The notes under the pieces are model-generated. The model made no database searches. It saw nothing but the letters and a program-made list of their open reading frames with translations, and had not been told where the DNA came from. Shown here piece by piece: positions 1 to 34,270 of a stretch of 34,270 nt of DNA. Origin of the DNA: Paludibacteraceae bacterium (GTDB lineage Bacteria; Bacteroidota; Bacteroidia; Bacteroidales; Paludibacteraceae). The stretch spans positions 1 to 34,270 of the forward strand of contig JAFTZQ010000011.1 of assembly GCA_017464475.1 (NCBI GenBank), read 5' to 3'. The position numbers were made by a program, and so were the translations under genes. The first letter of the stretch is position 1, and the number at the start of each line of letters is the position of its first letter.

Positions 1-155
1 ATGTTTATTGCTTTTGAAGGCTTTTACTCGCAGAGTTGCGGAGTTTGATGGTAAAAACTATCCGAAAGCTTGCTTGCGAGGAGTTTTTACCGGCAAATTA
101 CGCATAGAGCGAAGCTCAAAAGCCTTCAAAAGGGTTTATCTTTGTTTATTTTCTT
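1..155 (+). repeat. Structured repeat SR, copy 1 (5' end cut by window edge)
   Basis: A perfect 15-bp closing stem (11-25 with 118-132, CTTTTGAAGGCTTTT) encloses three hairpins. The first is 26-44. The second is 50-91, with outer arms GGTAAAAAC/GTTTTTACC and an inner AAG-CTTG-CTT tip at 66-75. The third is GAGC-GAA-GCTC at about 107-117. Directly repeated flanks lie outside the fold: ATGTTTATTGC at 1-11 and GTTTATCTTTGTTTATTT at about 135-152, followed by CTTAAAA. Homologous copies with compensatory stem changes lie at 33734-33893 and 33954-34120. It sits beyond the 3' end of the dehydrogenase gene. Whether it acts as RNA or as folded single-stranded DNA is unknown. Confidence 0.85.
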
Positions 156-27291: not shown

Positions 27292-28998
27292 ATGGCACGA
27301 GTATTCATATCCTACAAACGGGATGACAAGGATCTTGTTTTTCCTATCAAGGACAAAATCGAAGCTACGATCGGCGAACCTTGCTGGATCGACTTGGAAG
27401 GAATAGAGAGCGACGCGCAGTTTGCCAAAGTGATTATTGATGCTATTGATGAAGCCTCGATTTTCCTCTTTATGTACTCAAAACGTCATTCGATAATCAC
27501 AGATTTTGAGCACGATTGGACAATCCATGAATTGGGCTATGCAGAGGATGAGAGGAAAAGGATAGTTTTCTGTAATATAGACAAGACACCATTGACCAAA
27601 TGGTTCAAGTTGCTGTACAAATATAAGCAGCAAGTAGATATGACTTCGCCGGAGGACGTGGAGCGCTTGCTGGAGGATCTTCGGGAATGGCTGGGTGTGA
27701 CTAATACACAAGTAAGACAGCCTAAACAAGAGCCAATAGTTTATACCGAAGGATTAAGATACGAATACAATGAGCAGACAAAGGAAGCGACAGTAATAGG
27801 CTTGGGTAGTGTGGTGGATGAGAAGATCGTTATACCGCCAACTATCCTGCATGACGGGCGTACTTACCGCGTAACCAGCATTGGAGATCGTGCTTTCTTC
27901 TGTTGTAGAGGTTTGACCTCCGTGATAATTCCTGATAGTGTAACAAGCATAGGAGCTAGTGCTTTCTATTGTTGTTCTAGTATGACTATTATGAAGATTC
28001 CTAATAGTGTCATAAGCATAGGAGATAGTGCTTTCTATGGTTGTATAGGTTTGACCTCTTTGAGCATTTCAAATAACGTCACAAGTATTGGAAATGAAGC
28101 TTTTGCTGATTGCAGCGGTTTGACCTTTATTGATGTGGATGCAACCAATCCTAAATATCGTTCTGTAAATGGAGTATTATTTAGCAAGGATATAACGAAA
28201 CTTGTGCAGTTCCCAGGTGGGAAACAAGGTGCATATACTATTTCAGACAACGTCACAAGCATAGGAGATAGTGCTTTCTATGGTTGCACAGGTTTGACCT
28301 CTTTGACGATTCCAAATAGTGTCATATGGATAGGAAATCATGCTTTCTCAGGTTGCAGTAGTTTGACCTCTTTGAGCATTCCAAATAACGTCACAAGCAT
28401 AGGAAATAGTGCTTTCTCTGGTTGCAAGAGTTTATCTACTGTGACGATTCCCAATAGTGTAACAAGTATTGAAAAGGACACATTCTATGATTGTAGCAGT
28501 TTGACCTCCGTTACAATTCCTAATCGCGTCACAAGCATTGGAGAGAGGGCTTTTGATGGTTGTAGCGCCTTGACTTCTGTGATGATTCCTAATAGCGTCA
28601 CAAGAATAGGAGTTTGTGCTTTCTATTGTTGTTCGAGCTTGTCTTCTGTGACGATTCCTAGTAGTGTCACAAGCATTGGAAACAATGCTTTTTACGGTTG
28701 CGAGAACTTGAGTTTTTTGACTATTTCAGACAACGTCACAAGTATTGAAAAGGAAACATTCTATGGGTGTAGCAGTTTGACCTCCGTTACAATTCCTAAT
28801 AGCGTTACAAGTATTGGAGATGGTGCTTTCTTTTATTGCAACAAGTTGACCTCAGTGATTATTTCTAATAATGTTGCAACTATTGGAGATGAGGCTTTCG
28901 CTTATTGCGACCATCTAGCATCGATCACCATTCCACCTAGCGTAACAATCATTGGTAATAATGCATTCCCTTCTACATGCAAAGTTATTCGGAAATAA
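27292..28998 (+). CDS. TIR domain-LRR_5 (BspA-type leucine-rich repeat) protein 1
   Basis: A 568-residue protein with an N-terminal TIR domain (about 1-135): ARVFISYKRDDKD forms strand A, CWIDLEGIES the BB-loop side, and HDWTIHELGYAE holds Glu80 at the position of the NADase catalytic glutamate. A beta-rich linker (147-185, EGLRYEYNEQTKEATVIGLG) leads to about sixteen 23-residue LRR_5 units (core NSVTSIGDSAFYGCSGLTSV). One non-canonical block around 280-315 (VNGVLFSKDITKLVQFPGGK) is typical of BspA-like arrays. There is no signal peptide, so unlike secreted BspA proteins it should be cytoplasmic. TIR enzymes in bacteria cleave NAD+ or make cyclic ADP-ribose signals in defence; an LRR sensor joined to TIR suggests an immune receptor, which is inference. 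A close paralogue follows at 29029. Confidence 0.9.
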   Translation: MARVFISYKRDDKDLVFPIKDKIEATIGEPCWIDLEGIESDAQFAKVIIDAIDEASIFLFMYSKRHSIITDFEHDWTIHELGYAEDERKRIVFCNIDKTPLTKWFKLLYKYKQQVDMTSPEDVERLLEDLREWLGVTNTQVRQPKQEPIVYTEGLRYEYNEQTKEATVIGLGSVVDEKIVIPPTILHDGRTYRVTSIGDRAFFCCRGLTSVIIPDSVTSIGASAFYCCSSMTIMKIPNSVISIGDSAFYGCIGLTSLSISNNVTSIGNEAFADCSGLTFIDVDATNPKYRSVNGVLFSKDITKLVQFPGGKQGAYTISDNVTSIGDSAFYGCTGLTSLTIPNSVIWIGNHAFSGCSSLTSLSIPNNVTSIGNSAFSGCKSLSTVTIPNSVTSIEKDTFYDCSSLTSVTIPNRVTSIGERAFDGCSALTSVMIPNSVTRIGVCAFYCCSSLSSVTIPSSVTSIGNNAFYGCENLSFLTISDNVTSIEKETFYGCSSLTSVTIPNSVTSIGDGAFFYCNKLTSVIISNNVATIGDEAFAYCDHLASITIPPSVTIIGNNAFPSTCKVIRK

Positions 28999-29028: not shown

Positions 29029-30147
29029 ATGGCACGAGTATTCTTATCGTACAAACGAAAGGATAAAGATCTTGTTTTTCCTATCAAGGACAAAATCGAG
29101 GCAGCGATCGGCGAACCTTGCTGGATCGACTTGGAAGGAATAGAGAGCGACGCGCAGTTTGCCAAAGTGGTTATGAACGCTATCGCCAAAGCGTCCATTT
29201 TCCTGTTTATGTACTCGAAATGTCATTCGGAAATTACGGACTTGGATCACGACTGGACAATTCGTGAATTAAGTTACGCGGAGAAAAAGGGAAAACGGAT
29301 CGTGTTTTGTAATATAGACAAGACGCCATTGACAGATTGGTTCGATTTTATGTACCCCTACAAACAGCAAGTAGATATGACTTCGCCGGAGGATGTGGAG
29401 CGCTTGCTGGAAGATCTTCGAGAGTGGCTGGGTGTGACTAATACACAAGATGAACGGACTAAGCAAGAACCAATCGTTTATACAGAAGGATTAGCCTATG
29501 ATTACAACGAACAGACTAATGAAGCAATAGTCAAAGGTATAGGAACGGTAAAAGAAGAAAAGATCATTATACCACCAACTGTACAATATCAAGGACGGAC
29601 TTACCGCGTTACGAGTATTGGAGACAAGGCTTTCTTTGGATGCAGCGGTTTGACCTCTGTGACGATTCCTAATGGCGTCACAAGCATTGGTTATAGCGCT
29701 TTTCATGGTTGCAGTGGTTTGACCTCTGTGACGATTCCTAATAGCGTCACAAGTATAGGAAAAAGTGCTTTCTATCAATGTAGTGGTTTAACCTCTGTGA
29801 TAATTCCTAATAGTGTAACAAGCATTAGAGGTATTGCTTTCTCGGGTTGCATCGGTTTAACCTCTGTGATAATTCCTAATAGTGTCACAAGCATTGGAGA
29901 TTGCGCTTTCTCTGATTGCAGAGGCTTGACCTCTGTGACGATTCCTAATAGTGTCAAAAGCATTGGAATTTATGCTTTCTCTGGTTGCAGCAGTTTGACC
30001 TCTTTGACGATTCCACCTAGCGTAACAAGCATTAGATATTGCGCTTTCCATGGTTGCAGCAGTTTGACCTCTGTGGTTATTCCCAATAGTGCTACAGAAA
30101 TTGCTTTTAATGCTTTCCCGAATACATGTAAGGTTATTCGTCAATAA
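29029..30147 (+). CDS. TIR domain-LRR_5 protein 2 (tandem paralogue)
   Basis: A 372-residue paralogue of the preceding gene. The TIR domain (1-135) has the same layout, with the catalytic-type Glu in HDWTIRELSYAE. The beta-linker (EGLAYDYNEQTNEAIVKGIG) is followed by eight or nine 23-residue LRR_5 units and the shared cap ending NTCKVIRQ. The two genes are nearly identical over stretches encoding GEPCWIDLEGIESDAQFAK and QQVDMTSPEDVERLLEDL, but differ in repeat number, which points to recent duplication and array contraction or expansion. The leaders share TATAAAATATGGCACGAG. No signal peptide is seen. The terminator at 30241-30266 ends the pair. Confidence 0.9.
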   Translation: MARVFLSYKRKDKDLVFPIKDKIEAAIGEPCWIDLEGIESDAQFAKVVMNAIAKASIFLFMYSKCHSEITDLDHDWTIRELSYAEKKGKRIVFCNIDKTPLTDWFDFMYPYKQQVDMTSPEDVERLLEDLREWLGVTNTQDERTKQEPIVYTEGLAYDYNEQTNEAIVKGIGTVKEEKIIIPPTVQYQGRTYRVTSIGDKAFFGCSGLTSVTIPNGVTSIGYSAFHGCSGLTSVTIPNSVTSIGKSAFYQCSGLTSVIIPNSVTSIRGIAFSGCIGLTSVIIPNSVTSIGDCAFSDCRGLTSVTIPNSVKSIGIYAFSGCSSLTSLTIPPSVTSIRYCAFHGCSSLTSVVIPNSATEIAFNAFPNTCKVIRQ

Positions 30148-33098: not shown

Positions 33099-33404
33099 AT
33101 GAGTAAAATCAATTTGGAATCGCCGTTTACGGCTTTTCGAGGCAAGATCTGCAAGCACTCGAAGATCATCTTTGCCCAACGCGGGCAGACCCAGTACACC
33201 AGCCAGATTTGCAACCCGCGAACCAAGGCTTACAGCGAGGAGGAAATCGCCCGGCAGGGTAAGTTCAAACAGGCGGTGGCGAACGCGAAAACTGCGCTGG
33301 CGGACAGCACGCAGAAAGCGGCTTACGAGGCAGAGTACAAAGCACAGAGCAAGTACAAGACGCTGAGAGGGTATGTGATCGCTATGGAGTACGCGAAATT
33401 GTAA
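33099..33404 (+). CDS. Small conserved Bacteroidales-type protein (paralogue of the 34159 gene)
   Basis: A 101-residue protein of unknown function. The N-terminus KINLESPFTAFRGKICKHSKIIF aligns with that of the partial gene at 34159 (KVVFEDPIHHISGKIAKKFRTIY), so the two are paralogues. The middle has ICNPRTKAYSEEE, and the C-terminal half is a charged helical segment ending YKTLRGYVIAMEYAKL. There is no signal peptide, and about one quarter of the residues are Lys/Arg. I recall similar proteins in gut Bacteroidales genomes but no function. It follows the twin-hairpin leader A. Confidence 0.75.
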   Translation: MSKINLESPFTAFRGKICKHSKIIFAQRGQTQYTSQICNPRTKAYSEEEIARQGKFKQAVANAKTALADSTQKAAYEAEYKAQSKYKTLRGYVIAMEYAKL

Positions 33405-33733: not shown

Positions 33734-33893
33734 AAGTAAATAAACATAGATAAACACTTTTAAATGCTTTGAGCTGCGCTCTATGTGTCCTTAGTCGCTA
33801 AAAACTCCTCGTGTGCAAGCACCCGGATAGTTTTTATCAACCAAGACCACACCCTTGCGGGTAAAGCATTTAAAAGCAATAAACATAAATAAA
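33734..33893 (-). repeat. Structured repeat SR, copy 2 (inverted)
   Basis: Read on the minus strand it has the order of copy 1. The closing stem is CTTTTAAATGCTTT/AAAGCATTTAAAAG (33757-33770 with 33863-33876). The first hairpin is ACCC/GGGT (33851-33862). The second has arms TAAAAACT/AGTTTTTA (33799-33806 with 33829-33836) and tip GTG-CAAG-CAC on the plus strand (CTTG loop on the minus strand, 33813-33822). The third is GAGC/GCTC (33771-33781). The flanks are GCAATAAACATAAATAAA (33876-33893) and AAATAAACATAGATAAACAC (33738-33757). Stems differ from copy 1 by paired changes. Confidence 0.88.
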
Positions 33894-33953
33894 ATTATTT
33901 AGTTGGTCCAAAATTACACAGATTAAACGAATTGCATGCTACACGCTGCATAG

Positions 33954-34120
33954 TTTATTTATGTTTATTGCCTCGGGCGTTTGTACTCCGCAGGAGTGTA
34001 GATTTGGTTGATGGAGCGGCATGGGAGCTTGCTCACAAAGACGCTACAGCGAGCAAAGATACAAGAGCCCATCGGGCTACAAACGACAGAGGGGTTTATC
34101 TTTGTTTATTTACTTAAAAG
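33954..34120 (+). repeat. Structured repeat SR, copy 3
   Basis: Flanks are TTTATTTATGTTTATTGC (33954-33971) and GTTTATCTTTGTTTATTT (34094-34111) followed by ACTTAAAAG. Closing pairs are CCTC/GAGG (33971-33974 with 34089-34092) and CGTTTGTA/TACAAACG (33978-33985 with 34078-34085). The first hairpin is ACTCC-GCA-GGAGT (33985-33997), the CTTG-tipped arm is GAG-CTTG-CTC (34025-34034), and the third hairpin is AGCCC-ATC-GGGCT (34066-34078). It is the most diverged of the three yet keeps the fold. Its right flank contains TATCTTTG, a -7-like box, 55 bases before the next ATG. Confidence 0.88.
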
Positions 34121-34158: not shown

Positions 34159-34270
34159 ATGGGAAAAGTAGTATTTGAAGACCCGATTCATCACATCTCG
34201 GGCAAGATCGCGAAGAAATTTCGCACGATTTACAATTACATGAAAGCCACCGGACTGAAGTACACTTCCG
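34159..34270 (+). CDS. Paralogue of the 33099 protein, cut by window end
   Basis: ATG at 34159 begins a frame that stays open to the window edge (37 codons visible). KVVFEDPIHHISGKIAKKFRTIY aligns with the N-terminus of the 33099 protein at the positions K-[IV]-x-[FL]-[ED]-x-P-[IF], GKI-x-K and I-[YF]. The region before the ATG (CTTAACT) matches that of the 33099 gene (TTTAACT). It follows SR copy 3 by about 38 bases. Function unknown. Confidence 0.75.
   Translation, partial: MGKVVFEDPIHHISGKIAKKFRTIYNYMKATGLKYTS

Follow-up and report, generated by a model that had tools for sequence, protein, structure and literature searches.

Structured MITEs are known from Neisseria, enterobacteria and pneumococcus, and selection on the fold itself has seldom been clear in them. 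A section of PMC2229807 presents NEMIS/Correia, ERIC/IRU, RUP, RU-2 and RU-3 as repeated sequences of 100-200 bp whose transcripts are predicted to be highly base-paired. The same section links RUP to an insertion sequence through inverted ends and mentions a proposed role in insulation or processing for the NEMIS and ERIC transcripts. A second type of short interspersed element is bcr1, given as 167 bp, and as 147 bp in the literature cited there, in an excerpt of PMC2267715. An excerpt of PMC6542083 reports an average of 39 copies per strain, restriction to one group and TTTAT motifs. In the passages of PMC3446304 used here, the bcr1/BCR repeats are likened to MITEs and are partly transcribed, with 84 of 165 and 62 of 155 BCR copies found in mRNA in two B. 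cereus strains. REP/BIME sequences are 20-40 bp palindromes with GTAG/CGTC-type tags, according to a part of PMC3733652. The repeat described here is probably a genus-specific, MITE-like family with a selected, probably transcribed, fold.

The window is a stretch of 34,270 nucleotides from a Paludibacteraceae bacterium and forms contig 30 of a 1.90-Mb assembly that is 71% complete. The initial annotation, made from the window alone, had reported three loci sharing one architecture. A covariance model made from 47 copies located all three close to where they had first been seen. The copies, followed by the parts of copy 3, are as follows.

1-154, plus strand: copy 1, 159 bits, model positions 8-160; its left flank lacks the first 7 bases because of the contig start
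33735-33893, minus strand: copy 2, reversed, 160.8 bits; left flank at 33877-33893, right flank at 33738-33755
33954-34114, plus strand: copy 3, 136.2 bits; its left end faces the left end of copy 2, with 60 bases between them
33954-33970, plus strand: left T-rich flank of copy 3 (TTTATTTATGTTTATTG), end type A
33971-33985, plus strand: 5′ arm of the closing stem of copy 3 (CCTC, then CGTTTGTA), helix 1, from the sequence
33986-33996, plus strand: hairpin 1 of copy 3 (CTCC GCA GGAG), from the sequence
33997-34065, plus strand: long arm of copy 3, helices 2-4, from the sequence; tip CTTG at 34028-34031
34066-34078, plus strand: last hairpin of copy 3 (AGCCC ATC GGGCT), helix 5; the stem is also listed on the other strand by the pattern scan
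34079-34092, plus strand: 3′ arm of the closing stem of copy 3, helix 1, from the sequence
34094-34111, plus strand: right T-rich flank of copy 3 (GTTTATCTTTGTTTATTT)

The element has a core of about 120 bases, a folded module with three arms, placed between two T-rich direct-repeat flanks. The whole multi-branched unit measures about 160 bases. The direct-repeat flanks described in the initial annotation were recovered by sequence in the window copies: TTTATTTATGTTTATTG is present at 33954 in copy 3 and on the minus strand at 33877-33893 in copy 2, GTTTATCTTTGTTTATTT at 134 in copy 1 and at 34094 in copy 3, and GTTTATCTATGTTTATTT on the minus strand at 33738, in the right flank of copy 2. The stem letters cited there are likewise found in the window sequence. 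Copies 1 and 2 fold much better than their dinucleotide shuffles (z -4.73 and -5.47), and their closing stem and last hairpin form as claimed. Copy 3 alone folds weakly (z -2.08) and its own minimum-energy fold differs, yet it agrees with the family fold at 136 bits. The minimum-energy fold includes hairpin 1 in copy 2 but not in copy 1. Across the family, 134 of 139 copies form a hairpin with four or more pairs at the hairpin 1 site, compared with 57 of 139 after one shuffle of each. The CTTG tip, held to be invariant on the strength of three copies, is not so. Among the 129 copies with a tip found (139 examined, by a script that took only loop middles from a fixed list), CTTG occurs in 52, TTTA in 25, CTTA in 12 and CTCG in 11. 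The first and last bases of the tip loop are C-G in 65 copies, T-A in 37 and C-A in 14. In one copy, L184:97-302, the long arm is extended by a segment of some 45 bases that includes an inverted repeat of its own, as judged by eye. Also by eye, runs of near-identical short units recur beside several copies, as at 165-200 of the window (CAAATGTCAAATGTCAAATGTC; elsewhere CTCAATTCTCAATT).

The three window loci are real members of a much larger family. Searching the genome of the window with its last two copies gave 39 blastn matches, fragments included. The same queries matched 20 of 61 genomes, all of them among the 37 that belong to the genus of the window. A covariance-model search of Bacteroidales, as suggested in the initial annotation, matched 34 of the 61 genomes sampled from the genus; single genomes gave between 0 and 40 matches, fragments included, and 27 gave none. 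Among 295 genomes drawn from the order, 2 were matched, both of the same genus, and the 182 other sampled genera of Bacteroidales gave no model match; the genus and order searches used strict filters that are able to lose weak matches. The 183 model matches include antisense ones to the palindromic core; 150 of them were aligned and 139 kept by length. This final set of 139 copies comes from 24 genomes, and 24 of the copies are from the genome of the window. Three public MAGs titled uncultured Bacteroidales bacterium (isolates RUG11067, RUG12032 and RUG12423, RUG presumably denoting rumen genomes) carry the repeat in all three whole genomes; RUG12423 shares its coordinates with the genome G002. 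In a contig scan with the T-rich flank pattern, which proved a poor search pattern, 3 of 51 tested loci, those of the three MAGs, held a family match. No blastn match to the repeat was found in plasmid and phage records, and viral contigs gave no match to two exact repeat patterns of 19 and 20 bases. Rfam 15 contains no family that matches at gathering score, and the sub-threshold rows lie far under the family cut-offs. A search of open-licence literature found no paper describing the family. The earlier statement that no named family has this layout thus holds for Rfam, although some copies sit in miniature elements related to insertion sequences.

Contig C36 opens with a copy 98.7% identical to copy 1, which is itself cut at the contig start, so that the repeat probably breaks the assembly. 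Contigs start or end inside repeat copies at window position 1, at C36:1 and at the ends of C6 and C35. The copy numbers are therefore probably lower bounds.

Copies multiply within genomes: for 71 of the 139, the closest relative lies in the same genome, with about 12 expected by chance. In the genome G029, the cores of L357:602 and L364:592 are 98.8% identical, and their flanks are unrelated, with 6 and 13 of 60 bases equal. A gene block on contig 13 (with smpB- and hlyC-like genes among its members, named by eye) carries three copies in the genome of the window. The block is present in sister genomes, and in 20 fetched sister loci the repeat was found in none. In 15 of these 20 loci the two genes that anchor one of the copies were located; 14 of the 15 have no gap or almost no gap there and one has 619 other bases. 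The flanking bases of the sister loci cannot be aligned, so exact empty sites are not readable. The combination of a single-genus range with 0 to 40 matches per genome corresponds to the behaviour of a mobile repeat and not to that of a fixed cellular RNA gene. Ten pairs of copies are less than 150 bases apart; in eight of them the left ends face each other, as in the window, and two are tandem. Such close pairs are seen at 33734-34114 of the window and at loci L149, L371, L373, L374, L380 and L385, mostly left end to left end.

The T-rich flanks are of two co-varying types in direct orientation. Of 125 copies with A or T at both positions, 116 have the same letter at the fourth base of the left flank and at its counterpart in the right end (Fisher p 7e-21). 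Among 131 readable copies, the pairs are T/T in 82, A/A in 34, T/A in 5, A/T in 4 and other (G) in 6. The letters TTTAT are invariant in the left flank. We also considered the T-rich flanks as a target duplication, as the best k-mers lie inside both flanks, but by eye three of the four T-rich units change together, and this reading was rejected.

Some copies are framed by transposon ends. An automatic test placed 13 of the 139 copies between matching terminal inverted repeats, the three window copies not among them. The remaining 126 copies have no matching pair of termini by this test, which locus L173 fails by one mismatch. None of 44 copies with type-A left ends belongs to the 13 inverted-end copies, compared with 11 of 81 with type-B ends (Fisher p 0.008). 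End motifs were found at the left of 17 copies and at the right of 22, while the reversed-motif control gave 5 and 6. Units holding the module measure 217-320 bp between matched end motifs.

The ends are of three kinds. The first, of the CATTAGTGTCCACT type, bounds five units of 267-277 bp in the genomes G008, G018 and G019. The L173 unit, 277 bp long with CATTAGTGTCC ends, has a stretch of 9 bp, ATAAGTAAT, duplicated outside, and target duplications are absent in the CATTAGTGTCCACT-type units L163, L195, L199 and L201. An intact insertion sequence with the same ends as the L173 unit was found in G023 (L204). It is 1318 bp long, has a 9-bp duplication, ATCTTTTTT, and encodes a protein with Pfam matches to DDE_Tnp_1 and DUF4372. 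The second kind, TACTGATGCGTTAACTT, bounds units in G065, G032 and G035 as well as a 1146-bp DUF4372/DDE_Tnp_1 element of G065 (L436) with a truncated DUF4372 part. The left leader of this element can be aligned to the left arm shown by the units as far as GATTTGAAAAA, where the module starts; because of the truncation, the whole junction is not visible in this alignment. The G065 unit (L347, 270 bp) has 11 bases in common outside its ends, the G032 unit has no shared bases there, and the G035 unit extends into the contig end. The third kind, with TGTTGCGATA, occurs in the genome of the window and in others, and no insertion sequence bearing such ends was found. On contig 35 of the window's own genome, near 27.3 kb, an intact module is bounded by third-kind ends and by a shared 13-base stretch containing ATTTACAAT. 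Two other third-kind units of this genome, with the module partly replaced by other sequence, share 11 and 10 bases, and L222 of G065 shares 11 bases outside its third-kind ends. The third-kind units L015 and L154 have no shared bases outside their ends. Duplications are not seen in L015, L154, L241 and L350. Overall, duplications accompany the module in L173, L018, L347 and L222, and the partly replaced module in L013 and L266. Several units thus show target duplications of 9-11 bases, one of them in the genome of the window.

Two of the three end kinds are those of DUF4372/DDE_Tnp_1 insertion sequences present in sister genomes. We take these elements to be of the IS4 type; Pfam names only the two domains. 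DUF4372 genes are present in 6 of the 61 genomes, and none was found in the window's own assembly, which is 71% complete. The initial annotation had stated that its reading would be refuted if the copies proved to be remnants of a known mobile element, and in part this applies, as some of them have inverted ends, target duplications and termini of the insertion-sequence type. Mobilisation in trans of a minority of copies is well supported.

The fold of the module is under selection, and one strand is favoured. In the sequence alignment of 47 copies, 29 of the 31 predicted pairs show compensatory change, both sides having changed with pairing kept. Paired cells make up 94.0%, compared with 75.4% in shuffled data and 33.6-47.6% with the partner slid. 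A phylogenetic test was carried out on a structure-blind MAFFT alignment of 135 copies, with an APC-corrected G-test on all column pairs. The null consisted of 40 alignments simulated on a FastTree tree with the observed changes per column; it is a simplified version of R-scape of our own, in which Fitch change counts were inflated by 1.15. Twelve pairs are significant at E<0.05. Eleven of them are helical and belong to the closing stem, the long arm, the tip or the last hairpin, and the twelfth lies inside the right flank. The RNAalifold consensus on the 135-copy alignment contains the long arm only (17 pairs, 7 of them significant), and the remaining significant pairs were called helical by their position against the fold from the 47-copy alignment. 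Pairs are kept at 93-98% in all four divergence classes, and at 94% in the 15 copies less than 60% identical to the consensus, as read on a model-fitted alignment that is biased towards the fold.

The strand preference is seen in the G-U and A-C cells. In the structure-blind 47-copy alignment, G-U occurs in 60 cells and A-C in 15, a share of 0.80 that exceeds the maximum of 0.61 in 500 shuffles. The model-fitted alignment of 142 rows gives 149 and 35, with a bias towards the model. This excess of G-U over A-C indicates that the left-to-right strand folds. The initial annotation had read the paired changes around constant loops as the signature of a selected RNA or single-stranded-DNA fold and had proposed a test with R-scape. 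Covariation above both the shuffled and the phylogenetic expectation, together with the strand bias, bears out that reading. With strong strand-specific covariation in 139 copies from 24 genomes, the role of a folded insertion, for itself or for its host, becomes testable.

The probable reading is a non-autonomous mobile repeat family in one Bacteroidales genus, with the element as its conserved core. That the module is a mobile passenger is very likely. The inverted-end units would be moved by a transposase of the DUF4372/DDE_Tnp_1 type supplied in trans, the module occupying the place of the transposase gene within the unit. The other copies may be old units with eroded ends, or units moved in another way. 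For a role of the fold at the RNA level we see even chances. The fold would then act when host transcription passes through an insertion and the module folds into a compact, stable domain. This domain could insulate or process the transcript, by which insertions would become tolerable and the module would be kept under selection; insulation or processing as the exact role is a tentative proposal with the odds against it. If the RNA reading is true, dozens of genome sites can place one folded domain in transcripts.

Folding of the left-to-right strand fits RNA and single-stranded DNA alike. The module may instead fold as single-stranded DNA during replication or excision and be recognised by the mobilising enzyme, with the T-rich repeats as cleavage or exchange sites. 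A strand preference would also result from this, and the majority of copies without matching inverted ends, the left and right flanks co-varying in direct orientation and the near-identical cores with unrelated flanks (L357:602 and L364:592) are all in its favour. Several units, however, bear the marks of DDE transposition, namely inverted ends and target duplications, and we regard folding as DNA as unlikely.

Very little probability is given to an origin of the compensatory changes by quasi-palindrome correction, that is, template switching between stem arms, in place of selection. The long stems and a mosaic look of some copies would suit it. The copies window:1-154 and L192:4755-4915 come from two species and seem to neighbour one and the same gene, by eye a UDP-glucose dehydrogenase. 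They differ almost solely in the tip block, where both sides are changed together. This difference suggests that whole arms are exchanged between copies. Template switching predicts no bias of G-U over A-C, whereas 60 cells against 15 were observed. Short hairpins and interrupted helices also co-vary, and pairing is high in every divergence class, which argues further against it.

A host regulatory RNA or cis-acting leader, spread by duplication together with its genes, is similarly improbable. Some copies lie directly upstream of genes in the same orientation, such as the ORF starting at 34160, and copies of two species, L148 and L005, seem to occupy corresponding positions (by eye from the flanks). 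Against this, the distribution is patchy and variable in number, with 27 of 61 genomes without a match, and transposon ends flank some copies. Neighbouring genes are also more often on the opposite strand than on the same one. With genes called crudely as ORFs, 49 copies have their upstream neighbour on their own strand and 70 on the other; for the downstream neighbour the counts are 48 and 63. Overall, 133 neighbours are opposite and 97 on the same strand (binomial p 0.02 if all are independent); in this count, 32 of the 139 copies overlap an ORF, and 20 have no upstream and 28 no downstream neighbour within 400 bases. This slight excess on the opposite strand does not favour a sense transcript, a point that also counts against a role of the fold as RNA. 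A portable transcription terminator is very improbable too. The stable stem followed by a T-rich flank would suit it, but both flanks are equally rich in T, genes upstream lie on the opposite strand more often than on the same one, and the pattern scan placed no terminator at the right flank of either copy 2 or copy 3; its sole sense-strand site is hairpin 1 of copy 2.

Signals within the element itself were also considered. The left flank TATGTTTAT resembles a Bacteroidetes -7 box. A promoter in this flank was rejected, as the upstream TTG stands at no fixed distance (by eye) and the invariant letters are TTTAT. A scan for sigma-70 promoters, which does not cover Bacteroidetes promoters, gave no promoter. 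A leader peptide was rejected as well, the ATG of the left flank not being conserved by eye. Among the genes nearby, small ORFs that look alike by eye, with no function assigned, are located at 33099-33404 and 34160-34270 of the window and at L177:14586-14837 (MSKINLES..., MGKVVFED... and MQVQFILP...); the ORF at 33099-33404 has no Pfam match. A gene with a start like that of the 34160 ORF also follows repeat copies on contigs C4 and C12. The ORFs at 27292-28998 and 29029-30147 are adjacent and apparently related, and the former combines a TIR_2 domain at its N-terminus with leucine-rich repeats of the BspA type.

A second repeat family, LR, was observed in the genome of the window (L397, L400, L401, L403, L405 and L406, on contigs C34, C35, C32, C3 and C23). 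Its core measures about 135 bases, and 11 of 21 blastn matches span more than 100 bases of it. The sequence of LR is unrelated to that of the main family, and 4 of 4 folded copies have the same layout: a closing stem, hairpin 1, a long arm with a GCTTGC-type tip and a last hairpin. By eye, LR is nested within copies of the main family at several places. One core in three inverted-end kinds and with two co-varying flank types, and an unrelated family with the same four-part layout nested inside it, led us to a bolder and rather unlikely idea. The folded modules might be RNA passengers that hop between transposon frames, the fold being a recognised tag that enables amplification of any segment carrying it, as a bacterial counterpart of SINEs. 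Such a tag might be read by a transposase, by a factor of the host or by a copying route that works through RNA. If this were true, the fold would be what makes the passenger mobile.

Several known systems were ruled out by comparison. The multi-branched unit of about 160 bp is not a REP/BIME sequence. Integron attC sites have a GTTRRRY core box and stand in a cassette array. The right flank of the present element reads GTTTATC, and by this sequence and by the gene layout, judged by eye from the ORFs only, it does not qualify as an attC site. The restriction of bcr1 to the B. cereus group does not apply to the present family, which was found in a single Bacteroidales genus.

In kind, the family comes closest to bcr1 and to the structured MITEs known from Neisseria, enterobacteria and pneumococcus. 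Like bcr1, as far as the excerpts cited above describe it, the present family is short, interspersed and group-restricted and has TTTAT motifs. Unlike bcr1 of the Bacillus cereus group, with which it was compared by description, it belongs to another phylum and to one Bacteroidales genus. Its fold has three arms and covaries strongly, and some copies bear inverted ends of the IS4 type together with target duplications, features that the same excerpts do not report for bcr1. The structured MITEs, in that section of PMC2229807, are mainly stem-loops paired end to end, CIR excepted. The present family, in contrast, has a multi-arm domain inside T-rich flanks and three kinds of inverted ends, with most copies having none. 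With the DUF4372/DDE_Tnp_1 insertion sequences it shares two of the three end kinds and the 9-bp duplication, to which G065 adds the left leader; it differs from them in that the module lacks a transposase gene and the ends are absent in most copies. The multi-arm covarying fold, the exchangeable frames and the phylum set the family apart from its nearest relatives in kind.
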